NCBI GenBank assembly: GCA_037447655.1
Contig: JBBHKE010000323.1
Coordinates: 319,484 to 383,483 of the forward strand
Source: Zygnema cylindricum
Lineage: Eukaryota > Streptophyta > Zygnematophyceae > Zygnematales > Zygnemataceae
Length of the DNA: 64,000 bases
Direction: 5' to 3'
The notes below the pieces were generated by a model that was given only the letters and a program-made list of their open reading frames with translations, was not told where the DNA came from and searched no databases. The position numbers and the translations under genes were made by a program. Numbering within the stretch: the stretch's first letter is position 1; the number at the start of each line of letters is the position of its first letter. Of the stretch, positions 29,850 through 60,324 are shown piece by piece.

Positions 29850-30884
29850 TGTTGAAATAAGTAGTTTTTGTTGTATTTTTTAGGTCTAAAACTAGTTAGC
29901 GGAAACACATAAAGAAAATATAGGCAGCCTGCCTCCATCTCTTCTCTCTTGCCCCCATACTTGTTGTAGTCACTGAAGGGGAGAGAGAGCGATGGAGCCA
30001 TGGCTGCCTCAGCTCCACAGGGAGGACTAAAGAGTGACTTAAGTCACTCTCAACAAAAGGTTGAGTTTGGCAAGACTCGAACCCCCGACCAGCAGAGCGC
30101 GGCGTAGCCATTAGCTCTAACCAGTCTGTCATAGAAGTCTATTAGGATTTTTAGGGTTTCATTAGTATTTAAACTATTGTATAATACAAAAACCATTTAA
30201 TTGAAATATGGACGAACGGACATAGAACTTGTTAAGGTTTAGTGCGAACGTCATTTCGCACGAAACAAATGAAACGGACATTTATTTTAAAGGTCAACAT
30301 TTAATGTCGGATTTAATTCGACAACGCACATCATCGCCGAGATCGCGGAATGGTCACTTTGGATTTTATGGATGTGGCATGACGTGGCGACGCGTGAAAG
30401 GATGACATTCGGTCACGAGAATTCCGGAGAATATACGAACGAGTGGAAAAGTGACACGTGTCCAATCAGAAGCCTTAACGTACACCGGCCGTACAGAAAG
30501 GACATGGGCCGTAGTACCTTTATGTACTTTACACCGGCCGTACAGAAAGGACATCGGCCGTAGTACCTTTATGTACTTTACAATAATATGATTGGTTCAT
30601 ACTTCAGTAGATAAGGGTTGTGAGAGAGGTTTAGGACTTAGGAAATTTTGGCAGATAGTCACCTCTCTCTTTAAGAGAGCTTAAATAAATTTGCATTTTT
30701 GCCGGCTCATAACTTATCGGCTGGTTGGCCGTTTTTAGTGATTCTTTTTGCTAAGGACTTAAGGAAGTCCAGACTCCATAGGGGTGCAGTTAAACTGTCA
30801 TTTTGCCTTCTTGGACAACATTGGTTTTGGCTTGAAGTGGGTTGGTTAAATACTATCTATAGGCTTCCTATATTCTGTGGTCCA
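29850..30884 (+). repeat. 5' LTR of copia family A
   Basis: About 90 percent similar by eye to 35214-36201. It has an extra 49-bp tandem duplication (30482-30530, 30531-30579; unit starts ACACCGGCCGTACAGAAAGG). It stops matching at 30884 (GTGGTCCA), before the AATGGAGGACACAGAATTGC terminus kept in the other copies. Confidence 0.85.
30066..30130 (-). other. tRNA-like block, antisense in the copia LTR
   Basis: On the minus strand: GACTGGTTAGAGCTAATGGC (30126-30107) resembles a tRNA D-arm/A box, and GGGTTCGAGTCTTGCC (from 30084 down) is a B box close to GGTTCGANNCC. Spacing is tRNA-like. The same block is at 22943-22996 (+) and 35438-35490 (-). Whether RNA polymerase III uses it is unknown. Confidence 0.55.
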
Positions 30885-30933: not shown

Positions 30934-33900
30934 CCATGATGATGGGAGCTTTGTGCAAAAAACGATACTGGGGTATCCTCAGTGGACAAGTGAAACGTCC
31001 ACTTTCGGGAACTCCACCAAGATTTGGAGGAGTAAGGTTTCCTGCAGCAACGGCTGCCTCAGCACAAGAGGCAGATGATGGGGACAACAGTGTGTCCGAA
31101 AAGGGAAAAGGGAAGGAGACACTCTTACTCCTATTGCCACAGTACAAGGAGCGGCGACCGTGAAGACCAGGGAGAACCATACTCAAATGTGGGAGAATGT
31201 AAACATGGGTGCCAAGAAATTCATTCTCAGGCACCTCACTCAAGCTTTGGCCACTCCTCATCTTCACATTTACAAGGCCGGGGAGTTGTGGGTGATTTTG
31301 GTGGAGATTTATAGAGCTGTAACTATTCTGGAGCTTTAGTTGGCTGAGCAAAAGCTAGTAAGTTACACTTACAAAGGAGGAAAGATGTTAGATTACTGTA
31401 ATGATCTTTCTTGTTTGTATATGGAGATGGAAAGTGTCGGGTGGACAGGTACAATGAAAATGAAAGTTAACACTCTTATCATCAAGTTACCATATGAGTT
31501 CGAGAACGTAGTGTATCGAGTACAAGAAATGCCTGATAGTTCATGGAAATGGAACACAGTGGTCAGGATGATACTTATGCAAGAAAAGACAATGGAGATT
31601 AGAATAGGAGGAAAGAGCATTCAAGCTTTAGCAACAAGAGGGGATAGATGGGGAAAGGATCCGAAGATATCGTACAAAGGGGAAAGAGATCATCTTGGAG
31701 GACCGAGGCCCCCAAAGGGTCTTTGTCATTTTTGCAAAAAGCCAGGACACTTCATCGCAGATTGTGTCAAGCTGTCAGAGCTGAGGCTCAAAGAGAACCG
31801 TGGAGGGGGTTCTTCTGGAGAGAAGAAAAAGGCACATGTGGTTACAAAAGTTATAGGAGAAACCGAGGATGAGTCCTCTGAGGAGGATGGGGAGCTTCTT
31901 CTTGACGAGAGTCAAGAGGAGAAAGAGATCCCTCGGAGATAGAAGTGTGCCTTTGGAGCAATTCGGGAAGCTCTACAAGAAGGATGGATTATTGACTCAG
32001 GTGCATCCATGCATATGTGTCGTGATAAAAAACTCTTCACTAAGCTAAGGAAAATCCCTACTGTAGAGATAGAGTATGGGGATGGGAGAATAGTTACTAC
32101 AGATCTAGTGGGATCAGTAGATTTGAAAGTCTTACAAGAGGGTAAGACTTCTATACTTACATTCTCAGATGTACTCTACATTCCTCAGCTGAGTAAAAAT
32201 CTTATCTCTACATCTATGTTAGATGACAAAGAGTTTGATACGTTCACTCGAAAGGGAGTCTTTACAGCTAAGTATGGGGATGAAGTTTACTTCACGGCAA
32301 ATAAGGGAAGCCAAGGAATGTTTAGGCTTAACGTGAGTATTGAAAAGAAGAATGCTTATTATGTTGGTGTTCCTAAGTTGATGATTTGGCATAAGCGATT
32401 GGGGCATGTGCAGTTTGATAGGTTGAGGGAAATGAAAAAGCTTGGGGTAGTAAAAGGCATTCAGTTTGGGGATAATGAAATGATGGATGATTGTAGTGGT
32501 TGTGTTCAAGGTAAGGCTCACAAACTTCCCTTTCCCAAAGCCGCCACATATAGAGGTGAGAAAGTGATAGATTTGGTCCACACAGATATTTGGGGACCTG
32601 CAAAAGTACCTTCGGTTGGAGGAAAAAGATTTATGATGACAATAATCGATGATTGGTCTAGGTACTCTAGAGTCTACTTTCTGAAAACAAAGTCTGAAGC
32701 ATCAACTTACTTCAAAGAATATAAAGCCTAGAGTGAGAAGTTGCATGAAACCCCCATTAACAAGATAAGGAGTGATAATGGGGGGGAATATACCTCTAAC
32801 CAATTTGAGGAATATATAAGAGATGAGGGAGTGCAACACCAAAAAATTGTACCATATAACTTGGAAAAAAATGGGGTAGTTGAGAGGTTGAACCGAACTC
32901 TAAGAGATAGTGTATGTAGTATGTTGGCAGACAAGAAAATATGAAAGAGATTTTGGGTAGAAGCAATGAACTGTGCCAACTACATTAAGAATAGAGTCCT
33001 TACCTCAGCTGTAAAGGGAGCGACACCTTATGAGAGATGGGTTGGAAGGAAACCAAATATCTTACACCTTAAAGTATTCGGTAGCCAAGTTTATAGTCTT
33101 GACACAGATAGGAAAAACTGGAAACTAGATGCTAAGGGAAAACCTGGATACTTTGTGGGATATGATGAGGATGTTAAGGGATATAGAGTCTATGACTTAG
33201 CAAAGAAAGATATAATTCTGGTCAAACACTTAGTTTTCATTGATGAAGGGAAGTCATTTGACCCCTTCAAATATACAAAGAAGATAAGAATCAAATTTGA
33301 GTCCGATAGTGAGGAGAACTCAGTCGTTCCCGAAAGGGACATGAGTGAAACCGTGATTGCAGATTCAAGGGAAAATCGAGATATAAGAGACTCACCGTAA
33401 ACCTCACATACTCCTATGGATTTCGAGGACATAGAAGAAGTGGGACCAGAACCGGCTTCCATGGACTGGTGAGCGGATAAGAAAGTGAGAAGAAACCCAA
33501 GACTTCCATCCATTCCAGCTTCATAGTTTGAGGGAGGAAGGAGGAACAGCAAAAGGATACAAGAAAACCAGGTAGCTCATAAGGTAACTAAGCAATCTCA
33601 CCCAGATGAGCCTCAGTCTTACTCGGAGGTTGTGAATAGTCCAGAGAAAGAAAGATGGATTAGTGCCATAAATGATGAGATGGCTTCTATCATAGAAGCA
33701 AATACTTGGGAATAAGCTTATTGTCCTCCAGATAGAAAACCTATAAGGTGTAAATGGGTATTTAAATGAAACCTTAACCCAGATAATACCATTGAGAGAT
33801 ATAAGGATCGATTGGTAGCAAAGGGGTTCACTCAATAGAAAGTGATTGACTAAGAGGAGACCTTTGCTCCAATTACTCAGTTCCCCTCAGTAAGGATTCT

Positions 33901-35200
33901 CCTCAGTCTAACAACAGCGGAAGACATGGAAATTCACTAGATGGACATTTAGACAACTTTTCTTAATGGTGAGTTAGAGGAAAAAAATTTCATGAGGCAA
34001 CCCAAGGGGTTCGTGGAAGAAGGAGAAGAGAGCAAAGTCTGCAAGCTCATAAAATCTTTATATGGACTGAAGCAGGCTCCCTGACACTGGAATAAGAAAC
34101 TAGATGAGTTTCTCACCATTCTAGGATATATCCGTATCAGCTATAACCATTCTATCAATATGTTTGAAGATGAGAATGGTGTCATTTTTATTGCAATTTA
34201 TGTGGATGATCTGCTTGTGTTGAGTAAGTCTTTGGAGAAGATCAATAAGCTAAAGAAAGATCTTAGGGGGAGATTTGATATGAAGGATTAAGGGAGGAAA
34301 AATATATTTTGGGGATCAAAATGGAGAGAGATAGAGGGAAGAAGATTATTTGACTTACTTAGAAAAAAGCAATAGGAAATATGATTGAGAAATTCCAGAT
34401 GGAAAATGCTAACAGTTGTACCACTCCCATGGACTTGAAAAAAGTAAGTGATGGGAGTGTACAAAGAGGAGTAATAATCTTAGACGATCACATGAGTCCA
34501 GAGGAGAGAGAGTTTATGAAGTCTATCCCTTATAGACAAGTCGTAGGAAGTTTGATCTATTTTATGAATTCTACCACGCCGGACATAGCGCCAACAGTTG
34601 GAGTTCTCAACAGGAGTCTTAATGATCTTATTAAGAGAGACAGGGAGGCAACCAAGAGAGTCATGAGATATCTGGTTGGAACAAGAGAATTATGGTTGCA
34701 TTTGGGAGGGGAGCACACTGATATCACCACTTGGAGTGATGCCAGTTTTGGGGATGCACTTATGAGACAATGCACTTCTGGGTATGTGTTGTATGTTGGG
34801 GAAGGTCTTTGCTATTGGAGTAGTAAGCAACAAAAGGTTGTTGCTCACTCCACTATGGAGGCTGAGTACATGGCCTCTTGTTCTGCTGTGAAAGAGTTGA
34901 TGTGGGTTAAGTCGTTGCTGCAAGAATTGGGGTATATGAAGGAGGGAGTGCATGAAGTGTTTTGTGATAATCAAGCGGTCATAGCAATTGCAGCCAATCC
35001 AAAACATCATTTTAAGGATAAACAGATGGACATAAGATTAAGTTTTGTAAGAGAAAAAAGTTGAAAAAAAAATAGTGAATCTTGTATATAGATTTGATGA
35101 GGGAATGGTGGCTGACATGATGACCAAACCTGTGCCCTCTCCAAAGTTAAAATACTATAGGGAAAAATGTGGATTAAAAGTAAAGTTAAAATTAGACTAG
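30934..35200 (+). pseudogene. copia gag-pol (family A), multiply interrupted
   Basis: Order: gag (RPLSGTPPRFGG, LDYCNDLSCLYMEMES); zinc knuckle CHFCKKPGHFIADC (CX2CX4HX4C); protease WIIDSGASMHMC; integrase HHCC (WHKRLGH, DCSGCVQGK) and core (VHTDIWGPAKV, IRSDNGGEY); RT with the intact catalytic box IAIYVDDLLVLS; RNase H (WSDASFGDA, STMEAEYMASC, CDNQAVIAIA); end DMMTKPVPSP. In-frame stops fall at about 31940, 32729, 32942, 33398, 33468, 33526, 33714, 33765, 33837, 33939, 33951, 34081 and 34289. Several look like C-to-T changes of CAG, CGA or CGG codons. There is a frameshift in gag near 31100-31190. The catalytic motifs survive better than the frame. Confidence 0.9.
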
Positions 35201-35213
35201 AAAATAAGGGGAG

Positions 35214-36221
35214 TGTTGAAATAAGTAGTATTTGTTGTATTTTTTAGGTCTAAAACTAGTTAGCGGGCACACATAAAGAAAATGTAGGCAGCTTGCCTCC
35301 ATCTCTTCTCTCTTGCCCCAATACTTGTTGAAGTCATTGAAGGGGAGAGAGAGCGATGGAGCCATGGCTGCCTCAGCTCCATAGGAAGGACTAGAGAGTG
35401 ACTTAAGTTACTCTCAACAAAATGTTGAGTCCGGCAAGACTCGAACCCCCGACCGGCAAAGTGCGGCGTAGCCGTTAGCTCTAACCAGTCTGTCGTAGAA
35501 GTCTGTTAGGATTTTTAGGGTTTCATTAGTATTTAAACTATTGTATCATATAGAAACCATTTAATTGATATATGGACGAACGGACATAGAACTTGTTAAG
35601 GTTTAGTGCGAACGTCATTTTGCACGAAACAAATGAAACGAACATTTGTTTTAAACGGTCGATATTTAATGTCCGATTTAATCCGACGGCACACATCATC
35701 GCCGAGATCGCGAAATGGTCACTTTGGATTTTATGGACGTGGCATGACGTAGCGCCGCGTGGAAGGATGACATTCGGTCACGAGAATTCTGGAGAATATA
35801 CGAACGAGTGGAAAAGTGACACGCGTTCACTCAGTAGCCTTGTCGTACGCCAGCCGTACAGAAAACACATCGGCCGTAGTACCTTTATGTACTTTACAGT
35901 AATATGATTGGTTCGTACTTCAGTAGATAGGGGTTGTGATAGAGGTTTAGGACTTAGGAAATTTTGGTAGATAGTCACCTCTCTCTCTAAGAGAGCTTTG
36001 TATAAATTGGCATTTTTGCCGGCTCATTACTTATCGGCTTGTTGGCCGTTTTTAGTGATTTTTTTTGCTACGGACTCAAGGGAGTCCACAATGTATAAGG
36101 GTGCAGTCAAACTATCATTTTGCCTTCCTGGACAGCAGTGGTTGTGGCTTAAATTGGGTTAGTTAAATACTATCTAGAGGCTTTCTGTATTCTGTGGTCT
36201 AATGGAGGACACAGAATTGCA
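35214..36221 (+). repeat. 3' LTR of copia family A
   Basis: 1008 bp, TGTTGAAATAAG to GAATTGCA, immediately after the polypurine tract. It lacks the 49-bp duplication of the 5' copy and carries the antisense tRNA-like block at 35438-35490. Confidence 0.9.
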
Positions 36222-36910: not shown

Positions 36911-37162
36911 GGAAACCTTTAGTCCACTCTATATCTCGTGTGTGGGAAAGAGATTTCAAACTTAATAATTTTGTCTATGGGCTGAATTATCATAGAGAGG
37001 ATTTAGTGTGGTATGTAACTCCGAAGTGAGTACAAAGATTTGGTACACTCTTGGAACACGTGTTTGTCCGTGAAGAAGTCAAGATTTTTTGATCTGGATG
37101 ACGAAGTATGTTGAATTTTTTTAGAAATCCGAGATTTGGCATGTCCCACACTTGGGAAAATT

Positions 37163-37233
37163 GAGCCCGCGAGGGTTCAAACCTGGGACCTTTCACGTCA
37201 ACTGCAAATGCACTACCACTATGCCACTTGCTC
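37163..37233 (-). other. tRNA-like sequence in TRIM LTR (downstream LTR)
   Basis: 71 nt on the minus strand: 5' GAGC pairs with 3' GCTC; A box TGGCATAGTGG; B box GGTTTGAACCC. Unlike the copia cases it lies in sense with the LTR. The anticodon arm is poorly formed, so this is a tRNA relic or mimic and not a called tRNA gene. Confidence 0.6.
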
Positions 37234-37447
37234 GATGTAGAGACTGACAGGTCCGTACCCATTTATTACGTGCGGCTCCATTATGGATTTTTCATTTTCT
37301 ACCACGTATTGGACCACTTCACGTGCTAATCCAACACCCCTCTTCACGGGAAAGCTGGTCAAACCATCCGCAATCCTGGTGGCTCCGATACTATGTTGAA
37401 TTTTCTTAGAAATCCGAGATTCGACATGTCCCACACTAGGGAAAATT

Positions 37448-37518
37448 GAGTCGGCTAGGGTTGAAACCTTGGACCTTTCACTTCAGCTGCTAACGCACTA
37501 CCACAGTGCCACCAGCTC
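37448..37518 (-). other. tRNA-like sequence in TRIM LTR (upstream LTR)
   Basis: Second copy of the 71-nt block: A box TGGCACTGTGG, B box GGTTTCAACCC. It is more decayed than the copy in the other LTR. The ends GAGC and GACTC no longer pair fully. Confidence 0.55.
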
Positions 37519-37649
37519 GATGTAGAGACTAGCTGGTCCGTACCCATTTATTACAGGCGGCTTGAGTATGGATATTCTATATTCTACCTCGTATTGGATC
37601 GGCTTCACGTGCCAATCCAACAAAGTACAGTTTCATTTGGTTATTGAAT

Positions 37650-38406
37650 TCACACGTGGAGGTTCATCTTCAGTGATGAAAAAATGTGCAGACGGCGGAC
37701 GGAGTCCGCCGTCATTTTTGGAAGAGAAATATTGACTGTGCCGTCATTTCAGCAAACAAACTTTGATTGCGTATTATCTCATTTTAGCCACTGTCTGTTT
37801 TAGGTTTGATGTAAAAAATTGTGTACGGTTGACAGCGAGGTTAATTAAAGACTAGGTTTAAATGTACCGCACGACCTCGGTTATTATAGTACACTGTAGT
37901 TCAGTTGTAGGCTCACTTGTATAGGTAGGACTTAGAATATTTTGGAGTATGGAATTCCTTGTATGAAAACAGTGAAGTAGTTTCTAGGGTTTTTGAATTG
38001 CAAGATCATTGTGAGCTGTTGTGCATGTGTTAAATAACGTGAAGATGCATGCAATATTATCAGCTCTGCACCACTTAAACTCACATAATCGCAAAACATC
38101 GTGACGAGAATAAGACATAGAAGCAAAAAATTTGGATATGCAAGTACGGTAAGATAACATGTTCAGACGCGAACGCGAAAATAAGTCCTCGACAAAAATT
38201 ACGGGCATCGTAAATTTGTACGGTCCAACTCGTCATCGACGGAAATTACGGGCAATGTAAATATCTACGGTGAGCGCGAACGCAAAATATAATTATTTAC
38301 GGTCATGCAAAACCCAAATAACCTACAAACACATATTAGTGTGGCGGCTGCCCATCCTAATACCTAAATATACAAAGAAAAATGTCCGACAAGATGCGGC
38401 ATGACA
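37650..38406 (-). repeat. 3' LTR remnant of the gypsy methyltransferase element
   Basis: Starts (minus strand) TGTCATGCCGCATCTTGTCG at 38406, matching LTR starts at 48038 and 51417. It contains repeated CCGTAAATTT and GTCCAACTCG-type stretches of the U3 array. Its far end is not resolved and may be lost. Confidence 0.65.
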
Positions 38407-38595
38407 ACTATCGTGGATTTGTTAAAAAACGTGAAGTAACATGCGATATTTGAAGCTGTGCACCACTTAAACTCACATAATCGAAAAACATCGTGACAGG
38501 AATAAGACATACAAGCGAAAATGGATAAATACAACAACAAGCAAGTTAGAAGAAAAAAAAAGGTGAACCACTGAGCTGTTTATGGTTAGGTCGGT
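38407..38595 (-). repeat. duplicated LTR piece beside the gypsy 3' LTR
   Basis: 38425-38520 repeats 38033-38130 (shared GCACCACTTAAACTCACATA ATCG and AAAACATCGTGA). A run of 12 C at 38599-38610 next to it reads G-rich on the element strand and may be the remains of the polypurine tract. Confidence 0.6.
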
Positions 38596-38868
38596 TTATC
38601 CCCCCCCCCCAAGCTTATTAGCCAACAGAGGAGCTGGCCAACACGACCGGAAGCTCGCCACATCCGTGGCAAAACCAGTGACCATCCGGAAACGCCAACA
38701 ATGGTGGCACCAAACACTCAATGTGAAACCCCTGATTGCAGTGATCACAAAGTAACATGGTAGTTTCCCCGTCGATCGATGACAAAAGTTACATGCTGTC
38801 CCTTGCGTAATTGGCATCGCATTGGATCCATATCCCGCAAAAAATCTGGTAAATAACATAGAGCACAA
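38596..38868 (-). pseudogene. PHD finger at the C-terminal end of the gypsy polyprotein
   Basis: On the minus strand, after DMDPM one frame reads GTACNFCHRSTGK. After a single frameshift another reads MLLCDHCNQGFHIECL then VPPLLAFPDGHWFCHGCGE. Together the zinc ligands are C-x2-C, C-x2-C, H-x2-C, C-x2-C, the C4HC3 pattern of a PHD finger, with the usual LLCD.C..GFH..CL core and W before the last pair. PHD fingers commonly read the histone H3 tail. It sits downstream of the integrase, where chromoviruses carry a chromodomain. One frameshift separates the halves, so this copy is broken. Confidence 0.75.
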
Positions 38869-40154
38869 ATCTTAGAGTTCTCCCAAAATGTTCGCGTGTT
38901 CGCTCCTTCTAATCCCAAAATTCTGTTTGGATCCACCTCTATGATCCGTAGGATGTGTGCAGAAACATCCGTGTCCAAAGTGTCGAAGGATTGCCTACGA
39001 AAATACACATAGTCTCCCTCTCAATAGAGCTTTTGTTGCGGCCTGTAACTGCCGTTTCGAGTGGTGGCAAACCGAATTGTGTCCTGATGCTGGGTAATCT
39101 GCAGACTATCAAAAGCCATTGGCATTTCACGGGCAAAAAGAAAAGCACGATGAGTAAGTTCTTCCAAAGAGATGGTGTCAAACATAAGTGTAAGTGGATA
39201 GCTTGCAGCTTTCTGAATATTGCGACCGAGCAACGGTTGTCGCCCAAATAAAACATAATACAAGCTGAAATCAGCCAGACTTGCTTGAATTGACATGCGA
39301 TATCCCATGGTAATGTAGCCGAGGGACTCGTCCCAAACCGAGATGTGTTTCTCTAAGCAATGCTTACGCAAGGCACGCTTAAATGTTTGACTGCCCGTTT
39401 ATCGTCGCCATCTGCCTAAGTGTGATCGCGACTAGTACGACAATGATCGATTAGAGCCTCATCAAGCATCTCTTAAAATTCTCCCCGAAATTCCGTACCT
39501 TCATCCGTAAGGACCTCTGCTGGGGGCACCATATCTCATAACGATATGTTCATTAAAGGCAGCGGTAGTTAACTTTGTTGTCTTGTGAGGGAGAGCTACG
39601 ACTTCTACCCACTTATTGAATTTATTGATCATAATCATGATGTGTTGTTTTCCTCTACGTGAGATGGGAAAAGGTCTGGCTTGATCAACGAACCATCGAT
39701 AAAATAAACCCCTAATAGGTAGAGGTTGGAGCGTAGTGTGCCAATTAGAAAAAAATGTTCGAAGAAGGTCGCAAGTGGCACACTTGTGTAGAATAGCACC
39801 AACATTGGCTTGCATTCCTGACCACCAATACCATGCCTGAACTAGGCTTAACGTCCGCTTGGTACCTTAATGACGAAGCTAGGTGTGAATCTCCTCGATT
39901 AGAGAAAGCTGCTCGGTAGGACGAGGGACGTGTCTATGGCTTACGTCAGCCAACAACCGAACTAAAGATCCCTCGAGCCAAAGGTACTTTTTGGCTCTCT
40001 TTTTCACTCTGTCTTCTTTGTCAAAGGAAATGCGTGACCTAAAGGTATGAGAGGATAGGAAAAGAATGAGAGGCCCATCACGCCAAGGATTTGTGGCAGG
40101 AGGATGGTTCAGAATAGAGGCTAGAACGTAAGAAAGATAACAACCCACTGACAT
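38869..40154 (-). pseudogene. gypsy integrase
   Basis: Minus strand: zinc-region remnant HKCATCDLL (H2C2 type); core WFVDQARPFPISRRGKQHIM and MINKFNKWVEVVALPHK; EVLTDEG-type remnant near 39500; ALRKHCLEKHISVWDESLG; GYRMSIQASLADFSLYYVLF then GRQPLL; and the C-terminal SFDTLDTDVSAHILRIIEV leading to the PHD finger. At least five frame breaks. Catalytic acidic residues are only partly kept. Confidence 0.8.
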
Positions 40155-41547
40155 GGCGAGAATATCGTCATCATCAAAATCCTGTCGAACTCAATTATCC
40201 GTCAATCGAGGTAAAGGATTTCGGGAAATTTGTCCGCGTTTAGGCTAAGCAGACTGGTTCGGTGAATTATTTCAACGTCATATACTTGCAAAATTAAAGC
40301 CCATCGGGCTAGCTACTTGGAAAGCTTATCGTTAGTCATTAGCCAATGTAAGGGCTGATGGTCAATTAGTTGTGTGAACGGCTTTCCGTAAAAATAATTG
40401 TTGAAGTGAATGATTCCCCAAACCCCGACAAATATTCCCCTTGGTATCCACTATAATGTGATTCAGCACGGTTATTACTTCTACTTGTGTAAGCAACTAC
40501 ATATTCTTCTTTGCTCAACTCTCTTTGTGTCAAAATGGCAACAATTTTGGGTTTTCGAATATCTGTTTGGAGACAAAAAGGGGGTTTGTGATTGGGGGAA
40601 CGAAGAATCGTAGCACTCGATAAGGCGGTTTTTAATTTTTGAAATGTGGAAATCTGATTTGGACCCCATATGAAGGCCACTTCCTTCTTGAGACGGTCAT
40701 TTAACGGAGATGTGATGGTACTGAAATTAGATACGAACCTACGATATTAATTAGCAAGCTCGAGAATGGCTCGCAGACTTGTGAGGTATTTGGGAGCCAA
40801 CAATTTACTAGTTGCCTCTACTTTTGCTTCGAGTCGAGTGATCCCCTCAGCCGAGATAAAATGGCCAAGGTAAGGCACTCCCTCAGATTCAAAGCTGCAT
40901 TTTGCGGGATGACACTTAAATCCAACTTTTTTTAATTTAGTCAATACCCATTCGATGTGAGCCGCATGCTCTTGAATACTAGCGGAGGCAATGATGAGGT
41001 CATGGATGTAACACCTAGCAAACTTACAACCTCGAAGAACTGAGTCCAGGAGTTTTTGAAATACAGCCAGAGCATTTTTCAGTCCGATGGGCATTATGGC
41101 CCATTCCCATCCGTCGTCACTACCCTAAGAGGCAATTTTATGTCGGTCTTTTTCCTCTATCTCAATTTGATTGAATCTGTCAAGGATACTAAAATACTTC
41201 GCCCCGCCTACGTGGTCAAATATTTCCTCGGCGAGGGGCATGGGATGACGATCTTGAACGATCCTAGCATTTAGTTCACGATAATAACCGCACATTCGCT
41301 TTTCCGTAAAATTATCCTCGGAATCCAATTTCCGAGGCATGACAGTGGGAGCTGCGAATGTGGAGTCCGACCCATAGATTACGCCAGATTCTTCTTGCTC
41401 AACACATTGCTTGTCTAGCATTTCCCATTCAGTTTTTGACAAGCAATGCTTTGGTTTAAATATTAGGTGGTCATCTTCGAGATCTTTCAACATCATATAA
41501 GCGGTGTGTTGACCCAAATTTTTCATTGAAAAAGCAAAGGCATCCAC
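40155..41547 (-). pseudogene. gypsy reverse transcriptase and RNase H
   Basis: Minus strand: ESGVIYGSDSTFAAPTVMPR and MCGYYRELNARIVQDRHPMP (fingers), KYFSILDRFNQIEIEEKDRH (block A), MPIGLKNALAVFQKLLDSVL (block B), CYIHDLIIAS where YIDD is expected, so the second catalytic Asp site reads YIHD, and FKCHPAKCSFESEGVPYLGH. RNase H/connection follows (FIWGPNQISTFQKLKTALSS, PPFCLQTDI, VAYTSRS). Stops occur near 41123 and 40746. Ty3/gypsy by motif form and by order relative to the integrase. Confidence 0.88.
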
Positions 41548-42029
41548 ATTCCGTAAAACTACGTCAATGAGTAACTTGTGTTGAGCCTTTGTTAAATTGG
41601 TGCCGAAATTTCATTATAGATGATCACGGTTCTTAATGGTCATGGCCTCCATGGCTTGTGCAAAGGCAAACTGCTCATCTGCGATAAGCGTTTGACCTAA
41701 CTCGTAAGCCAGAGGTGTCTCTTTAAGGCAATTAACCGAATGATTCCAGCTGCGTGTTGGAAAAGCAATAGTCTAATGAGGAGTGGGTGGATTATACATG
41801 GAGCTTACAGACTTGACAGCCATGTATGCGGGAATATACCATGACATATGGCTAGGATTGAGGAAATCGTAGATAGAGATTTCCGGAACAGGTGGAACTA
41901 GAGAAAGAAAGAGGAATAATTGAAATGTGGTCCCTTTGAGAGTGGGACAGAAAGATTTACTTAGTGATGCATTCCTCCCCCTAGCTGGTTGAGACGTATC
42001 TGCCTGAGAGTGGCGACTAGCTGCAAACA
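41548..42029 (-). pseudogene. linker between methyltransferase and RT of the gypsy element
   Basis: Minus strand: open stretches such as EISIYDFLNPSHMSWYIPAY and NHSVNCLKETPLAYELGQTL connect the methyltransferase motif X to the RT. No named domain recognised. Part of the same broken polyprotein. Confidence 0.55.
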
Positions 42030-43012
42030 GAAGACCTAAAACAAAAGAGAAAGACTTCAGGTCCATGACAAGGCCTAATAAAGTGCATCTTTGACGTACT
42101 ATATCTTTGACGTTGTGTAAAAGGAAGAGCGGCTATAGTGCAAAGGATGAAATGCAAGAGGTGTTCTTGCTGCGTAAAGATAGGCTCTACGAGCTCACCG
42201 GTATGAATGTTTCAGAGCATGCCAAGACCGTGATTAGAGAAAGCTTGTGAATGTGGGTGAGAAACTAAGGTAGGAAGAACCTCGAGAGGTTGACCCGGGA
42301 TATTGATATTAAAATTAGGGAGACACTCTTTTTGAGTGCTGCACCTTATAAAAAGGAAGAAGTGCAGCCTGAACGTCCGTAGGTGGCGGACACACTAACA
42401 CGTTTGCCTCATAGAGTCGACCAATATCAATCACAAACGTCCATTCGGAGCGACCCCAGTGTGCTAGTGAACCATGGCGAGCGGCGTCAATACTAAGGGG
42501 CGTACCAATTAATTGATCGATCCGTTGATAATCAGCCAGGAACGTAGGTCTTAGATCGTTATAGGTTGCGTCATTTTTTAGGATATATCCCATAGAATGT
42601 TCTAAAGTTTGTAGGAAATGCAGATGGGAACCAATTCAAAAAATAATTTGGTAGGGAGATCGGCCAAACTGAGACCTTTCCCGGCCCGTGACATTCCCTA
42701 GCACTCCCATCCGCCAAAAACAAGATCAAATAGACCAATATCTAGTAAGTGATGGTTGCCCACAATCTGGATGTCTTGTGGGAGGGCAGTATGCATATGC
42801 TTGTATGCGGATTTTGGTATTAAATGCGGGTATTGGAAATGCAACAGATTACAATGATGTACTTGTGCTTTCCGTGCTAAAGGATCAATTTCAACGAAAT
42901 AATAAAATCGGATTAATAATCCATCCCGCAAACATGAAAAGAGGGAAGTGCCGATTCCAGCAAAGAGGTCCCAAATCACCAATCGATATAGATGAGGTCT
43001 CAACTAGATCAA
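42030..43012 (-). pseudogene. cytosine-5 DNA methyltransferase domain inside the gypsy polyprotein
   Basis: Minus strand, about 325 codons. Motif I VIWDLFAGIGTSLFSCLRDG (SAM loop). Motif II FYYFVEIDPLARKAQ. Motif IV FDLVFGGWEC, a TAG stop, then GMSRAGKGLSLADLPTKLFF, holding the catalytic Cys; a WEC variant of the usual PC loop. Motif VI is worn (LEHSMGYILKND, near the ENV position). Motif VIII region LIGTPLSIDAARHGSLAHWG. Target-recognition/IX region VLPTLVSHPHSQAF then EPIFTQQEHLL. Motif X LVMDLKSFSFVLGLL. Frame changes near 42595, 42310 and 42080. It transfers methyl groups to cytosine C5 in active relatives. It lies between protease and RT. Catalytic activity of this copy is excluded by stops. 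Confidence 0.85.
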
Positions 43013-43887
43013 ATTCCAATTATTGGGAAGAAACCCACAATAGTCTGTAGCGATTAAGATTGGAGGAGAGACTGGAGAAAATGGAATTGATAAGGTTTGG
43101 TTATAGATGCGGTCATATTCCCTCCTATCTATAAGAAATCCTAGATCAATGAAAATTTATGGCAAAAAATAACTATTGGGCAGAATTTCTCTTCCTGACA
43201 ATGAATGAAATTGAAATATTTCAGCCCTCGCAGAATTCCTTGAAAATGCAATTAGGAAGGTGGCCGAACGCGCCATAACATGCATGGGTTTCCTAGCGGA
43301 AATTAGCCAAATGCAGATTTTGCGATCTGGGAAGTTAGTGGTCCTATAAGAAAATGTTTGATCATGCATGTCAACTCCACCCCCTACACGAAATATAATG
43401 TCATCTCCCACTAGGCATTCATATTCACTACATTTAGTGACCAGAGGGTGAACCGAGATCTCATAGCTGTTCCGTTCTGAAGCATGAAAAAGAGCGGTTC
43501 TTTAGTGATTATTAAGACTGGCTCAGTTGTACTCGCTGATGTTAACAAGCGAGACAAAGTGGACTGAAGCTTCTTCAGAGTTAGACCAAGCTTGAGTGCA
43601 AAGCTAGAGCCTAATATCACCGGCTTTGCACCTGTATCCATGAGGGGCAGGGAAGGGGCTATACCATTCATCAACAACGAACCCTTCCCGTTATCCAAAA
43701 AACTAATATGAGGATCGAGGGAATTTCGCCCCTCTACGAAAATAGGCTGAATCGCAGCAAGATTTTCGTGTACTAGCAGTGCTTGTAAAGCGGCAACTGC
43801 GGCAGCTATAACTGAGCTATCGGTGGTATAAGAGAGTTTTGGAGTGTCATAAATCATAGTGGATAGAATGCACAAGCGTTCTTTCAC
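43013..43887 (-). pseudogene. gypsy aspartic protease and following linker
   Basis: Minus strand: SLPLMDTGAKPVILGSSFAL then KLGL is a retropepsin active-site region with DTGA. LFFMLQNGTAMRS follows. After 43411 a second open stretch (MGDDIIFRVGGGVDMHDQTF) leads to the methyltransferase. Length to the methyltransferase is about 290 codons. Confidence 0.75.
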
Positions 43888-43899
43888 GCGATGTGCTTT

Positions 43900-45660
43900 A
43901 TGTATGGTAGATCCACTATGTTGAGAGCTAAAGCCGTGATGGTTGAAGCGGTTTCGGGCAAGGGAGGAGAAGGTTCTTTAGTAAATTAGAACAAAATACC
44001 TGTGTTAGTAATTTAACCGTCACGGCTGTGATCGGTCGAACCTTTATCGAACATAGCCTCTCGTTGTTGGACGGTGGAATCTCGTAAGATTCATATTGCC
44101 AACGTGGGCATGTGTACAACGATGCGAGCCATGCCTCTAAATTGTGGCTTCATTTGAGTCATGAAGGCTGCAAACTGCTCCTTCATCATGACCACCATTT
44201 CCTCTTACATTTTCAAACGTTCTTTATCCCTTCGAGATACCTTAAGTAGATTGGTGTCATTTTTCGGTTATTTAACACGTTGAAGTGGTATTGCGGATCG
44301 AGGGGGAATGCCACGAGTCTTAATTTGGTTCTCATAATAAAATTATTGGTTATTTATATGACAACGTTATACAGAATGTCCTGTTTTTTTGCAATGTGTA
44401 CAGGTGACAGTTTTGTCTAGACACATTCGGGCATCATGCCCTATTTTCCCACATCGAAAACATAATCTATTTCCTATAACAACTGGTGGGGTTCCCATGG
44501 CCGGGACTATATGAGGTCCGTTGTTAGGACATGTTTTGTTCCATGGTGGAATAATAGGTTCTTTCGGAACCGCTTTAGGATGGTCATGGGCTTCCCACCA
44601 ACAATTTTGCATTTTGTATTCCACGGCATGTTGCGCGGCTTGGTCGAAAGTGAACTTCAAGCCGTAGATTTGAGTCAAGTGATTCTGGATAAATTTCTTA
44701 TACTGACTCGGAAACTGTCTTACAAATTTTGAGACAGCTTTAGCATCTGACATCAAGTCCGGCAATGCTTCACGAACAGCTTCAATACGAGCATTCATGG
44801 CAGGGACAGTCTCTTCTAACTTCCGTTCAAAGTTCATCAACTCTCAAACTTGGTCAAGGTTTTGCATACGGTATTCCGCTTGCAATATTTCAAACATGAC
44901 AAAGAGAGGATCTAGTATAGGGATCGTTATCGGTGGTCGTGTCAGGATTCGAGCACCTGCAGCTATAGCAAACTGCTACGGTATTTTCGTAGCAACCACT
45001 GTAATAACATCGCCGTTGAGATCAAGGACTTCCGCGATAGCTAGTTGATAAGGAATTGCTGGTTGTCCTATAATAGCAAGACTCCTAGCAAAAGCTACAG
45101 AAAACTATATCATTGCAAGTACGGAATCATACTTGCGAGGGTAAAAAGTAAGAGCCAAACCGCGTAGGTAACAGCCTAAAAAAAAAAAAGCAACCCGTAG
45201 GTCATACAGATCTTGGTACCGGAATGCAAGATCGTGCATTTTGGTATTGAATAAATTACGGAAATGAGATAGAGTCATTGTGTCCTTCATTCTTGAAAGA
45301 TAGAAATGAAGCCGAACCCACCCTTCGGATGTGGAAGCCATTTCCAATATTGGAATGATTGGGGCTAATAATGAATTTGAAATTTGTGTAAACCAAAAAG
45401 ATAATGAATTGGAATCCGACCCGTCAAGGGAATTGTGGTCAGATTCTTCCTCGAAAAGTGTGGAAGAGACTAATGATAAAGAAGATATTGAGGTGAGAGA
45501 TGATCGAACTGAAGGGAAAATTTGACCCGAGATATTCGGGGAAGGATGGTACAAAAGACTATGTAAGTCTGATGGTCGTGATTCGAGGGCCTAAAGGAGG
45601 CCGACGATCGAGTAGTTCCGAAAGGATAATCGAGATTAACCCAATCGGTGGGCATAAAAA
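43900..45660 (-). pseudogene. gypsy gag
   Basis: Minus strand: MPTDWVNLDYPFGTTRSSAS near the start; MASTSEGWVRLHFYLSRMKD then TMTLSHFRNLF; PIPILDPLFVMFEILQAEYR-type stretch; FVRQFPSQYKKFIQNHLTQI and FDQAAQHAVEYKMQN; zinc knuckle CFRCGKIGHDARMC (CX2CX4HX4C) and a second CTHCKKTGH. It packages RNA in active relatives. The frame is interrupted several times. A second copy of the same gag lies at 53747-55014 (+). Confidence 0.85.
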
Positions 45661-46129: not shown

Positions 46130-48038
46130 CTGACCGAACACTTTTAACAATCTGGTGATTTTCAAAAGTGAACTGCTGCTGATCGCTACCGCTGGAATTT
46201 TTAAAAACTCTCTATCGAATTTGCTTTCTTTTTGTCACTTCCAACGAAATACAGAAGTCGACTATTCACCTCGTATATAAAGTCGTGTACGAGTGAAAAA
46301 TGCAACGCAAACCAACAGGAGACAAGTTAGGGTGGAAAATAGTACACGAAAACAATTGAATATCCAAGAATTTGGCAACAATCTTAAGCAAAGTTGATAA
46401 TTGATTGGACAAGTGTGAAATTGAAAGAAGTGTTTAGAAATAGAAAGAAATGTGTTACAATTTCGACTAAATGTGCACAATTGGAAGAAAACGGAGCTGT
46501 CTTCTAGAAATGTGCAGAAATTGTAGAAATTATGCAGAAATGTACCAAAATGTACACAAATTGCAAGAAATGTGCAGAAATTTTCTAATGTCCTACAATG
46601 TCTGCAAATGTGACCACATGTCTAACAATGTATGATAAAAGTAACCCATGTTAGTAACTAAGGCTTAAATTGTGAAGATAAGTTTCGAAAATTGCATCAA
46701 TTGCGCCAAATGTGCGACAATGTTGACCAATGTCAAGAAAATGTGATTATTATATATTTATTTTGATTTTTGAATATTTTTTTTTCTTTTTATATAATCT
46801 ATTCTGAAAAAACAAAATGAATTGAAAATAACAATGGAAAATGAGACGACAATTTTCAAGTGCATGAATATTAAGGGGATGGTTGGCCACTAGGCCCCAA
46901 GGTCTATTTATATTCCTCGCACGAGTTATCCTATCGAAGACAATCTGAATTTAGACTTAAAGAGAATAAATCAAAGTAGAAACCAGCGAAACAGAAAACA
47001 AAAACTGAAAATGACAATACGCAATACACTTAGGAGGTTTGAGATAACCAAACTCAAAAGGTGAGCATAAGCCAAATAGAAATAAATACACAATCACAAG
47101 AAATAAAAACAACAAAATGATATTCCCAACAACAACTTCCACACTAATTAAAGTTCAGCTACAGTTGGGAAAAGAAGTTTGTGATATGAGGACGGGATCA
47201 AAATCCCCTCAAACGGACGAAAAGAGTTGAAGGGAACCCGTGTAGGTCTTGGTCGAAGCCGTATAGATTAATATGTTAGGCTTTACAAAATATTGATAAT
47301 ATCATAGAAACTTGACGCTTCACGCTAAGGCAAAAAATCGCCTCTAAGCTGCCCGGACAATTTTACAAAGAATAAGATGGCTGCAAAAAATCTTCAATAC
47401 TGAAAATAACAATTCCTGCACTTGAAAATTGTGTGTAGGAAATAATTTAAAATAACTAAGTACCAAGGCCTACACCTATCGAAAACAAGCCAATGAGAGT
47501 ACAGCATGCTATGTAAGTATTTGCGTCTAGTTTGGATTCAGCCAAAAGGTGACAGGAATCCTATGCCCTACGTTACAAAATCTATAACCTACAGATTAAA
47601 ACCCTTCTTATCTACATGTGAATGCGTAAACCTCCAAATGGTTCATGACTTAACTTTGTCCAATCACATCGCTTTGTTAGAAGTGACAGTTTGCTAGTCA
47701 GTACATCAGGTTGATGGTCTGGATGTTAGGTTTCGAACAAAGTATATTCCGCGTCGACGGCCGAGATGCGCCCTCACGCGAAACAATCGAATTTGTTGTC
47801 GGCATAAATTCTAAAGATGTAGGTACAGTAAGATTACCTGTACAGATGCGAATGCGAAAATAATTCGTCCGCGGAAATTAGAGGCAACGTAAATATGTAC
47901 AGTCGGGGCGAACGCGAAATGTAAGTATGTACAGTATTACGAAACCCAAAGAACATACAAACACAAATTAGTGTGGTGGCCGCCCATCCTCACACCTAAA
48001 TATATTAAGAAAAATGCCTGACAAGATGCGGCATGACT
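46130..48038 (-). repeat. 5' LTR of the gypsy methyltransferase element
   Basis: About 1.9 kb. Its start (GTCATGCCGCATCTTGTCAG, reading down from 48037) and interior (GAATCCAAACTAGACGCAAA TAC, GGCTTATGCTCACC-type stretches) match the plus-strand LTR at 51417-53260. 46430-46740 is a run of degenerate AAATGTGCAGAAATTG units. The inner boundary near 46130 is approximate. Confidence 0.7.
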
Positions 48039-50450: not shown

Positions 50451-51416
50451 GGGTTGCCGATTAGGTCATGCACTTTGAATGATATAATGATTATTTGATT
50501 ATACTTTGATTATACTTTTTGTTTATGTGTGATGCATTTGTTTGTTATTATTTATTTATGTTATTTTATATATGTTTGATATGCATTGTTTATGCATTAG
50601 TCCTAGGGTTTGTTTATGTTGATTATTCCATCAAACCTTAGATGTTGTCATAGGGTTTATTTATGTTGATTATTCCATGAAACCCTAGTTGTTGTTTATT
50701 GCATCTGTGTATGCATGTATGTTAAATGGAGGATGCATTTCAAATGATTGTTCATTGGCTTAGCTTTGCTTAGCTTTTTGCATGATAGTTTGGGTGGCTT
50801 CTGCGGTCTATTTTAGACCAAAGAACAACAAAGAGTCCTCTCCATCCCAAGTTGGGGACACCAAGGGGTGAAGGAGGATCACACCTGATTTCGAAACCAT
50901 CGTTAAATGTTTTGCTTTCTCTCTTTGTCATCGTTGATTGTCGTGGTATGTTGAGGTTACTTCGCTATTTTCCTTAATTTTATCTTTTATTTTCTTTTAT
51001 TGGGCAAGGTGATATTGTTAATTATGAAACATGGTATTCTATTTCTTTCCTATATTTCTACCTGGGAGTTCATTTGTGTCTTATTTAAGTATTATTTTTT
51101 GGTTTCAGCGGTGTTTGGCCGTAGTAGGTTGCTAAAACACTTTCATCAGAACAGTTGGTTTTAAGGGAGCATTTGTTAATACTTCTAGTGGATAAGCACA
51201 CTACTTAAAAAGCAACATGTCTCCTTGGATTAGAGGGGATAGGAGCTTTGAATTTGGAATATCACTTTGTGTAAGGGAGTTAGGGTTCCCATTTTATATT
51301 TCTTCTATCTTTCTCGCTACCATCATCCTATGGGGGGAGGAGAGGCTTAGAACACAGGAACCTTAGACATCGCGTCCGAGGAGGAAGGTAGTCTAGAGGG
51401 TTTCGAAGAGGGGGGT
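50451..51416 (+). other. gypsy 3' internal remnant up to the polypurine tract
   Basis: Mostly AT-rich with no domain recognised. A 60-bp tandem duplication (TAGGGTTTGTTTATGTTGAT then TATTCCATCAAACC) lies at 50601-50690. The last 70 bp reads SEEEGSLEGFEEGG up to a purine run GAAGAGGGGGG directly before the LTR start at 51417, so this is the 3' end of a gypsy interior. Confidence 0.45.
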
Positions 51417-53260
51417 GTCATGCCGCATCTCGTCGGCCAATGTTTATATTTCGGGATTAGGATAGGCACGTGCCACACTAATTCGTATTTGGGTGTTATT
51501 TGGGTTTATAGGACCGTACAGACCTACATTTTGCGTTTGCGTCGACCGTACATTTTTACATCGCTATACGCGCCGACCGTACATATGTATTTTTGGCCAT
51601 AATATGTGTCGACAACAATATTGACCGTACGACTCAAAATTTCTGCAATTTCCGCAATTTCCGCCGACGGCGAGTTCAACCGTACGACATATATTTTCCT
51701 TGATTTCCGCCGACGGGGAATTTTTTTCATTTCACGTCGGCCGTACCACATCTACCTTTCGCGATTTCCGCCGACGGCCACTTTGGTGATTTAACGTCAA
51801 CCGTACGACTCACCTTTTTTGGAATTATCGCGACTACAAATTGGACTGTACCCACGGTCCTACCGTACCTACTTTCATTTTCCGAAATCCTGGCTGACGA
51901 CACATTTGAATCATTTCGCGCGAGGGATCATTTCGACCGTCGACGCAAAGTATACAATTTTTGTAATATCTCATTTGAACCGTTGATAGGAGTGACAAAC
52001 AAATCGGCTGTCAATTCTGACGAAGCGACGTGATTGGATCATTTTAAGCCGTGAACCATTTGGAGGTTCACGCATTCACATGTAGATAGGAAGGGTTTTA
52101 ATCCATAGGTTATAGATTTTGTAACGTAGGGCATAGGATTTCGACCTCCTATTAGCTGAATCCAAACTAGACGCAATTACTTACATAGCACGCTGTACTC
52201 TGATTGGCTTATTTTTGCTAGGCGTTGTTTTTGTTACTCAGTTCATTTTAGATTATTTCCTGTTCACAATTTTCAAGTGCAGGAATTATTTATTGACATA
52301 TTTTCAGTATTAAGGATTTTTCTGCAGCCATCTTTTTATTTGTAAAATTGTCCCGACAGCTAAGAGGTGATTTTATGCCTTAGCGTGAAGCGGCTAGTTT
52401 TCTATTACATTAAAGCCTTACATATTAATCTATAAGGCTTCGGCCAAGACGTACACTGTTTCCTGTCACTTCTCTCGTTTGTTTGAGTGGATTTTGACCG
52501 CGTTCCCACAAAACAAACTTCTTTTCCCGGCTGTGGTTGAGCTTTATTTAGTGTGGAAGTTCCATGTTGGGATTATTGATTTGTTGTTTTTATTTCTTGT
52601 GATTGTGTATTTATTTCTATTTGGCTTCTACGCAACTTTTGAGTTTGGATATCTCAAACTTCATAAGTGTCAGGCATATTGTCATTTTCAGTTGTTGTTT
52701 GTCTTTCTCGGTTGTTTATGTTTTTATTTGTTTTATTTAAGTATAAATTCAGATTATTCTCGATAAGATAACTCCTACAATGAATATAAATAGACCGTGG
52801 GGCCTAGTGGCCATCCATCGACTTAGTATCCCTGCACTTGAAAATTGTCTCTTTTCTTATCTCGCTTATTTGTTTTATTTCAATTTCAATTTTCTTTGGT
52901 TAAAATAAAAAGAAAAAAAAATATTCAAAAATCAAATATATATATTTATAGATACATTTCTACAAAAAATTTAACTAGCTTTACATTTATAATTACCATT
53001 TGCTTGTTGGTTGACGCTTTAATCTTTTTGGCCAATTTTCGGCCAACAATATATTTCACTAACTTAAGTATTTGGTTTTTGTTTCCTCCGTTTTTTGGTT
53101 ATATATAAGGGTCATCATTTGCTCACATTTTGACATATTTCGCTAAAGAGTGGAGTTAGTGGAGCGGATACGTTTTTGGGAGCTCTGCAAAACTTCGGTT
53201 ATAGCAAACAACCGCAGTTCATCCTTGGCAATCACCAGATTGCTAAGAGTGTTATGTAAG
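51417..53260 (+). repeat. gypsy LTR (plus strand)
   Basis: Begins TGTCATGCCGCATCTCGTCG right after a polypurine tract and leads, about 490 bp beyond its approximate end, into gag of the same family. It therefore serves as the 3' LTR of what lies upstream and the 5' LTR of what lies downstream, a tandem LTR arrangement. The U3 part has the repeat array at 51505-51860. Confidence 0.7.
51505..51860 (+). repeat. tandem array in the gypsy LTR U3 region
   Basis: About six to seven degenerate units of 45-65 bp, each with a CGACCGTACG-like core and usually ATTTCCGCCGACGG. CCGTAC recurs near 51512, 51548, 51577, 51626, 51680, 51740, 51800 and 51863. In LTRs such arrays often act as enhancers; that role is inferred here. 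Confidence 0.65.
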
Positions 53261-53746
53261 TATCACGATGCCTTGCAGGTACAGGCGCGTGCTAAGGTAG
53301 TCACTCGATCGTATAGAGGGATCGGGTTTGGAGTGGATTAGTGTTAATCCATTTGTATTGAGCAAACCATTTGTCCTGCTTTCCATGCTTACTATCTTTC
53401 CATGCTTGCTATCTGCCCTGAGTGGCCTTCGCTGAGTTTACTTTGCCCGGTGTGGGATTTGGACCATAGATCTTGCCGTTGGAGGCATTCGTTAGCTCCT
53501 TTGTGGATTGTGCCGCTTAAGATCTGCACTTGGGAGTGCTTGGAGAGTAATTTAGTTGCCTTTATAGATCTGACCCTTTGACCTTTTCCCTTTATTTGCA
53601 AGGTAAAAGGATTTCGTAATACAACTTCTTGATAGATCTGGCCATCAAGGCCCTGTTAGAGACTGATTGGTTGGGTGATTCGACAAGTGAGTGGTGTGGT
53701 CTGGCATTTGAAATATCTCGTATAGATCAATTTTGCTATCTATTCG
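53261..53746 (+). other. gypsy leader between LTR and gag
   Basis: Non-coding, aligned with 45661-46129 of the other gypsy copy. Primer-binding site not identified. Confidence 0.5.
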
Positions 53747-55014
53747 TTGTTTGATTTTATCATTTTTTTGCCCATTGATTGGGCTAATCTCGATTATCCT
53801 TCTCGAACAACTCTATCGTCGGCCTCTTTTAGGCCCACGGAATCAGGACTTTTAGACTTACATAGTTTTTACGACCATCGTTCCCTTGATATCTCGCGTC
53901 AAGTTTCCCCTTCAGTCCAATTGTCTCTCACCTCAGGATCTTCTTTATTATGAGTCTCTTCCACACTTTTCGATGAAGAATCTTACTACGATTCCTTTGA
54001 CGGGTCAGATTCCAATTCATTATCTTTATGGTTTCCGCAAATTATAAATCCATTATTATCCCCAATCATTCCATTATTGGAAATGGCTTCCACATCCGAG
54101 GGAGGGGGTCGACTTCATTTCTGTTTTTCAAGAATGAAAGACACCATGACCTTATCCCATTTTCGAATGTTAATCGATACCGAAATGCGTGATCTTGCAT
54201 TTCGGTACCAAGATCCGTTTGACCTACGCATCACTTTCTCTGTTTTAGGCGTTACCTTTGCAGTTTAGCCCTTACTCTTTATTCCTGCAAGTATGATTTC
54301 CTACTTGATGATAGAGTTTTCTTTAGCTTTCGCAAAGAGTCTTGCTATTATAAGACAACCAGTAATTCCCTACTAACTGGCTATTCCGGAAGTCGTTGAT
54401 CTCATTGATGATGTTATTACAGCAGCAGCTGTGGATATATCGCCGGAGTTTGCTATAGCCGCACGTGCTGGAATCCCAACACGACCAGTGATGACGATCC
54501 CTATATTGGATCCACTCTTTGTCATGTTTAAAATGCTGCAAGCGGGATACCGTATGGAAAACCTTGACCAAGTTCGTGAGTTAATAAACTTCGAACAAAA
54601 GTCAGAAAGACCGCACCTACCATGCGTGCTCGTATAGAAGCTCTTCGTGAAGCATTGCCGGACTTAATGTCGGATGCTAAAGCTCTCTTAAATTTGTAGG
54701 ACAGTTTCCGAGTTAGTCTAAGAAATTTATCCAGAGTCACTTGACTCAAACCTACGGCTTGAAGTTCACTTTCGACCAAGCCGCCCAGCATACCGTGGAG
54801 TACGAAATGAAAAACTATTGGTGGGAAGCCCATGACCGTCCTAAAGCGGTCCCGAAAGAACCAATTGTTCCACTATGGAACAATCCTCGTCCTAACAACC
54901 GGCCTTCTAAAGCCCCGACCATGGGAACCCAACCTGTTCCTCCCGAAACTGATTATGTTTTCGATGTGGGAAGATGGGGCATGATGCCCGAATGTGTCCA
55001 GACAAAACTCTTAC
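53747..55014 (+). pseudogene. gypsy gag, second copy, cut by a copia insertion
   Basis: Plus strand: PIDWANLDYPSRTTLSSASF, MASTSEGGGRLHFCFSRMKD, FDQAAQHTVEYEMKNYWWEA, and a zinc knuckle read across frames (CVDVGRWGHD-like, then CVQTK). It matches the gag at 43900-45660. It stops inside the zinc-knuckle region at 55014, where a copia LTR begins, so the remaining gypsy domains, including any methyltransferase, are absent here. Confidence 0.8.
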
Positions 55015-59640: not shown

Positions 59641-60324
59641 TAATTTTCGACCGGTTTCCGAGAATTGAAGATGTGACAAATGTGTACGGAGAAAAGATGT
59701 TTTAAGTGGCCAAAAAAACCTTGACGTTAATAACGATTCGAGATTCTACTAGACCGTAGTGCTGTGTATCGAGCCTCTTACCAATACCGGATATGTACCT
59801 TTTTTTGACTTATTGATTATCGATATATATTGGTTCGCACTTCACACGTGTGGTTTCGTTTTTTGTACTACAAAATAGGTTCCGTACTCCAATTTTTTTT
59901 TTTTTTTCAAACCCTCTTACACTCTTGTTGTGATATCAGCTCCTCGCAATGTATCAATTATCGGTAGCCATCCCTTTTATGTATCGATATATCGTAATAT
60001 ATTTGCCACAATAACCAATATCGATATATTGTTATTTATCGCTCCACTCACCGATATAAATATTTGATACATTGGTATCGGCAACAAGATTCTTAGCCTA
60101 GCTGATACACAACAATAGGAAAAACCATCAAGGTTGAAACGGGGGAAAGAAAGTTAAAGGCCAAACAACAAAAGGTAAAAAAGTTAGAAGCAAAAAATTG
60201 AAAAGGTTAGCTTTATTTTGGCCTTATTTAGGTCAACTTTATTTAGGCCCATCATTTTCGTGTCATTGTGACCTGTATTTAATACTAGTACCCTGCTACA
60301 AACGACGTGTTACGTGCTAAAAAA

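Follow-up and report, generated by a model that had tools for sequence, protein, structure and literature searches.

The window, by which we mean the whole 64-kb stretch of DNA analyzed here, carries on its minus strand, at approximately 38.0–48.0 kb, a Ty3/gypsy element that is very probably an old, inactivated copy; judging by sequence homology, its lineage encodes Gag, protease, a DNMT3-like C5-methyltransferase (DNMT), reverse transcriptase (RT), RNase H, DDE integrase, and a C-terminal PHD finger. The order Gag, protease, RT, RNase H, and integrase on one strand, together with an integrase of the DDE type, is that of a Ty3/gypsy LTR retrotransposon. All seven parts of the element are collinear with P0004, an intact 2358-amino-acid Gag-protease-DNMT-RT-RNase H-integrase-PHD polyprotein, and the coordinates of the parts are collected in the table. 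The first-pass annotation of this DNA lacked the PHD finger and the B-A-B repeats described below; both are added here.

Features of the Ty3/gypsy element and of its second copy (positions in the window; identities are to P0004 unless stated)
Feature	Position	Strand	Evidence and remarks
Repeat A1 (5' terminal repeat)	47810..48038	-	83% over 166 and 78% over 88 bases to A2; ends by eye, to about 10 bases
Gag ORFs	45105-45554 and 44367-44840	-
Gag with zinc knuckle	44316..45344	-	29% identity over 376, E 3e-32; zf-CCHC E 5.8e-5
Aspartic protease (DTGA), two frames	43292..43749	-	39% and 36%; PF13650 under its cutoff (E 0.002)
DNMT piece A: motifs I, II, and IV, stop in catalytic loop	42581..43027	-	46% over 149
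DNMT piece B, in a shifted frame: region of motifs VI and VIII	42240..42599	-	45% over 69 (42599-42393) and 36% over 121
DNMT piece C: between motifs VIII and X, in the frame of piece A	42104..42337	-	40% over 80
Motif X remnant (MDLKSF...)	42022..42066 (approx.)	-	by eye
Reverse transcriptase	40852..41607	-	59% over 255; RVT_1 E 1.3e-12
RNase H, two frames	40232..40728	-	50% and 59%
DDE integrase	38754..40229	-	40% over 520, one frame; rve E 0.0056, below cutoff
DDE integrase, second-frame match	39523-39386	-	alignment to P0004
C-terminal PHD finger	38627..38803	-	PF00628 E 9.4e-10, 38.8 bits, cutoff 24; 50% over 56 (aligned part 38788-38627)
Repeat B1	38408..38527	-	84% identical to B2
Repeat A2	38138..38408	-	pairs with A1; ends by eye, to about 10 bases
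Repeat B2	38016..38138	-	pairs with B1
Second copy, truncated after its 5' part (A repeat, 5' UTR, and gag)	51416..55009	+	79-81% to copy 1 outside the A repeat, 74-76% within it

Within the matches to P0004, stop codons interrupt gag (five), the DNMT (six, in pieces that partly overlap), RT (one), RNase H (one), and integrase (eight), and none falls in the protease or the PHD finger. The reading frame changes in the protease, the DNMT, and RNase H, and also in the integrase, as judged from one extra match. Because these stops and frame changes run across the domains and include a stop in the catalytic loop of the DNMT, the window copy is dead.

Repeats B1 and B2 abut A2 on either side, almost without a gap, so that the element reads A-coding-B-A-B in this one copy. 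No B match was found near A1 within 45.5–51 kb, and no tRNA primer site was recognized by eye in the element. The gag of the second copy matches P0004 at 54074–54684; the copy ends before the protease and is silent on the DNMT. Ahead of its A repeat lies a stretch rich in purines. Its 5' end faces that of the first copy, and it is cut at 55009, just before a repeat held in common with 26753–27921. Ordinary LTR elements carry a purine-rich stretch before the 3' LTR. The terminal repeats could, with a likelihood that we place somewhat short of even, be ordinary LTRs, the 3' B-A-B being a local duplication in the window copy alone; the purine-rich stretch before the second A repeat and the sighting of B-A-B in a single copy fit this reading, as does the related contig L069, where no B-A-B repeat was seen (closure of the contig through its repeat could hide one), but B1, A2, and B2 are nearly gapless, no B lies near A1, and A-coding-B-A-B is the order that the figure legends of PMC5890265 report for the algal element KnitGypsy-Dnmt3.

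Several neighboring features bear on the host and on the other repeats of the window. The first-pass annotation had noted plant genes beside the element, and this context is supported by an ORF matching chloroplast ribosomal protein L29 (PF00831 2.9e-8; best PDB chloroplast L29 7.5e-7), which argues for a plant or algal host; this gene content makes a eukaryote with plastids the most likely host. The terminal part of a gene for N-alpha-acetyltransferase 30 (PDB 5e-13; not named by Pfam) lies at 944–1378 (plus strand), and its open frame runs on into a long stretch rich in His and Gln. Two direct repeats of approximately 0.2 kb, 85–86% alike, occupy 37107–37622 and may be a SINE; the first contains a weak tRNA-like Rfam match on the minus strand (37162–37233; 30.2 bits, cutoff 29), and ARAGORN found no tRNA in the window. 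Three related 1-kb repeats (29850–30882, 35214–36199, and 22212–23219; 75–87%) are perhaps copia LTRs, and copia-like sequence was recognized by eye at 31340–35100 and 55957–59680, with CpG observed/expected ratios of 0.33 and 0.53, respectively, compared with 0.89 for the gypsy element. LINE-like reverse transcriptase fragments were seen by eye at 8330–9861 (minus strand). A 0.63-kb direct duplication (18843–19473 and 21415–22047) is 96% identical, more alike than the transposon repeats.

The first-pass annotation had placed a cytosine-5 DNA methyltransferase domain between a DTGA protease and a gypsy RT. Its motifs DLFAGIGTS, EID, GGWEC-stop-GMS, and SIDAARHGSLAH were found where it had put them, at 43003–42698 and 42593–42315 in two different minus-strand frames, and the P0004 alignments agree that the protease and the RT flank the domain on the same strand. 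By homology, the DNMT extends from 43027 to 42104 (minus strand) in three pieces collinear with P0004 residues 935–1255 (Expect(3) 5e-51), which bears out a cytosine-5 methyltransferase within a Ty3/gypsy Pol. Motifs I, IV, and VIII are present in the window copy and motif VI is decayed; the claimed motif X (MDLKSF) is collinear by eye with AIDLRCLTF of P0004, but it is absent from every alignment. Support from the Pfam DNA methylase profile PF00145 was borderline, with no match at E≤1 for the bare 101-amino-acid ORF and, for the longer DNMT piece with stops written as X, a score below the cutoff of 22 (18.1 bits, E 0.0019). The same longer piece matched three DNA methyltransferase families in PHROGs, at 5.9e-6 (phrog_116), 1.7e-4, and 8.7e-4. 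NCBIfam returned no match for the window DNMT, and piece B by itself matched no methyltransferase family in Pfam, NCBIfam, or PHROGs. Protein searches with the bare window ORF and then with the DNMT region gave no matches, as did a PDB search with the bare ORF, and phage tblastn with the window ORF gave a best E of 0.5 or worse (16 records).

A protein search with the window RT region returned 330 proteins at E≤0.001, the best 120 of which were examined (P labels). The best four are 54–56% identical to the window; beyond them, identity above 46% was found among the matches listed only in P0014 (53%, over 67% of the query). P0004 matches both DNA_methylase (8e-8) and PHD (6e-11) above the Pfam cutoffs. 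Among the best 120 of the 330 matches, PF00628 was detected in 17 and a DNMT in eight (six by Pfam, P0060 and P0078 by motif), and no sequence was named as coming from Klebsormidium nitens; some of the PHD-bearing matches may be second ORFs, with the DNMT in the first. L069 has two such ORFs, one of 1162 amino acids encoding Gag-protease-DNMT and open at its start, and one of 1043 amino acids encoding RT-RNase H-integrase-PHD. The locus takes up 9197 of the 9285 bases of its contig (GC 52%), and because the last 39 bases of the locus repeat its first 39 exactly and it ends in gag, the contig looks circular. Its record is labeled as a cyanobacterial MAG; judging from gene content, it is likely a misbinned eukaryotic contig and a probable contaminant in the prokaryote reference set.

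In P0004, L069, and the window, the DNMT follows protease and precedes RT; in P0007, P0008, and P0021 it also precedes RT, within an ORF that has no protease; and in P0060, P0081, and P0112, a group that P0078 resembles by motif and in the tree, it comes after RNase H and ahead of integrase. At the end of P0008 a PHD finger was seen by eye only. The aligned relatives have C5 motifs I, IV, VI, VIII, and X in canonical order; at 35%–45% identity to the first row, all seven keep ENV, the catalytic Cys, and the motif VIII RxR without change. These invariant motifs, with the open frames of L069 (1162 amino acids) and P0004 (2358 amino acids), suggest that the domain has been kept by selection.

The carriers also belong together by descent of their polymerases. 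An RT-RNase H tree of 121 rows (119 of the 120 listed matches, L069, and the window; P0022 was dropped for short coverage) was built by a quick method with no bootstrap and rooted at the midpoint. A single clade of 21 of the 121 rows (SH-aLRT 99) takes in the window and the nine known DNMT carriers, and it also holds 16 of the 17 PHD matches, with P0071 outside. The window lies in a six-row subclade (100) with P0003–P0006 and P0014. In the DNMT tree, one group (100/100) unites the ten retrotransposon rows, with the window and P0004 as sisters (100/97), the pairing expected from the RT tree. L069 joins this pair in the DNMT tree (81/82) and the group of P0007 in the RT tree, a mild conflict.

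A profile of the seven relatives placed DNMT3A/B/C chains first in the PDB (up to 73 bits, 1.6e-19; best 60 of 81 matches), so DNMT3 is the best class for these enzymes among PDB chains. Lower matches were 4onj (45 bits), labeled a DNA methyltransferase in the PDB and which we take to be tobacco DRM, HaeIII (42), HhaI (41), DNMT2 (34), DRM2-labeled chains (33), and DNMT1 (19), in a comparison that disadvantages DRM by its permuted motif order; the motifs of the relatives, unlike those of DRM, are unpermuted. A predicted fold of the P0004 domain (mean pLDDT 70.2, pTM 0.68, seven sequences) retrieved DNMT3 entries in 50 of 50 listed PDB rows with Foldseek, at TM-scores of only 0.42–0.49 by query length. 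In the unconstrained DNMT tree, DNMT3 stands beside Bacteroidota enzymes with weak support (82/53), and the retrotransposon DNMTs are not grouped with it; a tree constrained to join the two gave p-AU 0.473, with only two partial DNMT3 rows, a value that speaks neither for nor against such a grouping. Against 66 viral loci the profile reached a best E of 1e-16 (31% identity), and against the 80 genome loci retained from 94, with L069 not counted, 2e-15 (26%), where each E is relative to the candidates only. A phage or bacterial origin of the DNMT domain is not favored by these comparisons, though compatible with the DNMT tree.

Traces of past methylation were sought in CpG decay. In the terminal repeats, transitions are seen at 18 of the 53 cytosines in CpG, compared with 10 of the 81 elsewhere (p 0.004, uncorrected, one of nine tests, and with small counts); repeat A alone gave p 0.013 and repeat B alone p 0.197, also uncorrected among the nine. 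Between the two copies, gag and the 5' region showed no CpG transition bias (p 0.92 and 0.57, respectively), and the other comparisons, three copia-like and one duplication, gave p 0.05, 0.84, 0.61, and 0.76. Observed/expected CpG is 0.89 in the element, 1.09 in copy 2, and 0.33–0.53 in three copia-like regions assigned by eye. The transitions offer a weak hint that the terminal repeats may once have been methylated at CpG, and the element body provides evidence against strong methylation-driven decay. Broad CpG loss through self-methylation was rejected because the body is undepleted.

In living members of the lineage, the DNMT, whether cut free of the Pol polyprotein or still part of it beside RT, would methylate CpGs de novo on new double-stranded cDNA, during or after reverse transcription. 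The premethylated copy would then bear a mark like that of resident silent DNA on entering the genome, and the retrotransposon, with a DNA methyltransferase of its own, would turn a host silencing mark into its tool. Chromodomains direct chromovirus integration toward one type of chromatin; by binding histone H3 tails, the PHD finger of the integrase would do likewise. We regard PHD-guided integration in living members as close to an even call and self-methylation as conceivable, with the balance leaning against it; the window copy itself cannot self-methylate. As described in the text of PMC5890265, the DNMTs of the dinoflagellate element SymbioDIRS-Dnmt3 methylate CpG de novo in yeast, and KnitGypsy-Dnmt3 produced no methylation there, in a test that its authors call inconclusive. 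The DNMT might instead act elsewhere, on host chromatin, RNA, or the DNA viruses of the host, and benefit the element indirectly. Antiviral roles have been proposed for retrotransposon methylases (PMC6338049), RNA methylation has been discussed for LINE-type DNMTs (PMC5890265), and the CpG traces reported here leave a mark in cis unproven, but we consider such action unlikely for a domain that matches DNMT3 rather than DNMT2 (73 versus 34 bits) and forms part of Gag-Pol beside RT.

Motif IV reads Glu-Cys (WEC) in the window, P0004, and P0007, which are three of the ten retrotransposon DNMTs, and Pro-Cys in the other seven; Pro-Cys was also found in 113 of 113 scorable microbial loci (31 of 144 were unscorable) and in both DNMT3 rows. 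On this comparison, the WEC of the window is a motif IV variant common to P0004 and P0007, not decay of the window copy. P0007 is apart from P0004 in both trees, at forks that are modestly supported, which may mean either two origins of the Glu or a reversion. The contrast between these three DNMTs and the uniform Pro of the microbial loci could mean that catalysis has been lost or changed in the Glu-Cys subgroup and that the domain serves there as a nucleic-acid binding module, which we hold improbable, given that the Cys, ENV, and RxR are retained in P0004 and P0007.

The notion of chance motifs, or of a cellular or phage methyltransferase gene that landed once inside a gypsy element, draws on the sub-threshold Pfam score and has a negligible likelihood: chance similarity was rejected on the collinear homology to the P0004 domain at the same place and on shuffling (122, 61.6, and 48.5 bits in the window, compared with 27.7 for the best of 100 shuffles of the P0004 DNMT stretch), and a one-off insertion on the nine further elements, from other sources, that carry such a domain. 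The broader picture that we tentatively draw is of an ancient gypsy lineage in which a writer (the DNMT3-like domain) and a reader (the PHD finger on the integrase) would form a portable epigenetic cassette, premarking cDNA and picking target chromatin. One subgroup would have the Glu-Cys loop absent from the 113 scored microbial loci, and the two places of the DNMT in Pol, one ahead of RT and the other separating RNase H from integrase, would reflect two captures or a move. A PHD finger beside a DNMT is a testable writer-reader pairing, and with open-frame relatives identified, activity, selection, and target choice become testable.

Chromoviruses are Ty3/gypsy elements with a chromodomain on the integrase. 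The window element likewise has a chromatin reader at the integrase C terminus, but a PHD finger replaces the chromodomain and a DNMT is added. The precedent that the first-pass annotation had named for capture by retrotransposons is present in the literature as KnitGypsy-Dnmt3 of Klebsormidium nitens (de Mendoza 2018, PMC5890265), described there as a Ty3/gypsy Pol with a DNMT3-type, unrearranged DNMT, as in the window. According to the figure legends of that paper, A-coding-B-A-B is the DIRS order (Figure 1e) and the K. nitens elements have the same (Figure 4c). The window element thus combines the two features of KnitGypsy-Dnmt3, a DNMT3 domain in a gypsy Pol and the A-coding-B-A-B order, the latter in one copy and likened by published description; the host of KnitGypsy-Dnmt3 belongs to the green lineage, and that of the window is plastid bearing. 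Unlike KnitGypsy-Dnmt3, the window element has Glu-Cys in motif IV, and its PHD finger has no mention in the main text of PMC5890265, figures and supplements aside. SymbioDIRS-Dnmt3, as described in the same paper, also has a DNMT3-type DNMT in a retrotransposon Pol and A-coding-B-A-B repeats, but it is a tyrosine recombinase element, whereas the window element has a DDE integrase. In passages of PMC12344493, DNMT3 members are placed in retrotransposons of streptophytes and dinoflagellates, and a PHD finger in such elements is not named in those passages; transposons with DNA methylases are described as absent from land plants such as tracheophytes (PMC6338049), a description that would have to be revised were the host of the window a land plant. 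Among the open-licence papers listed, covered mostly by title and the beginning of the abstract and for some by passages of main text, none was found to report a DNMT and a PHD finger in one retrotransposon.
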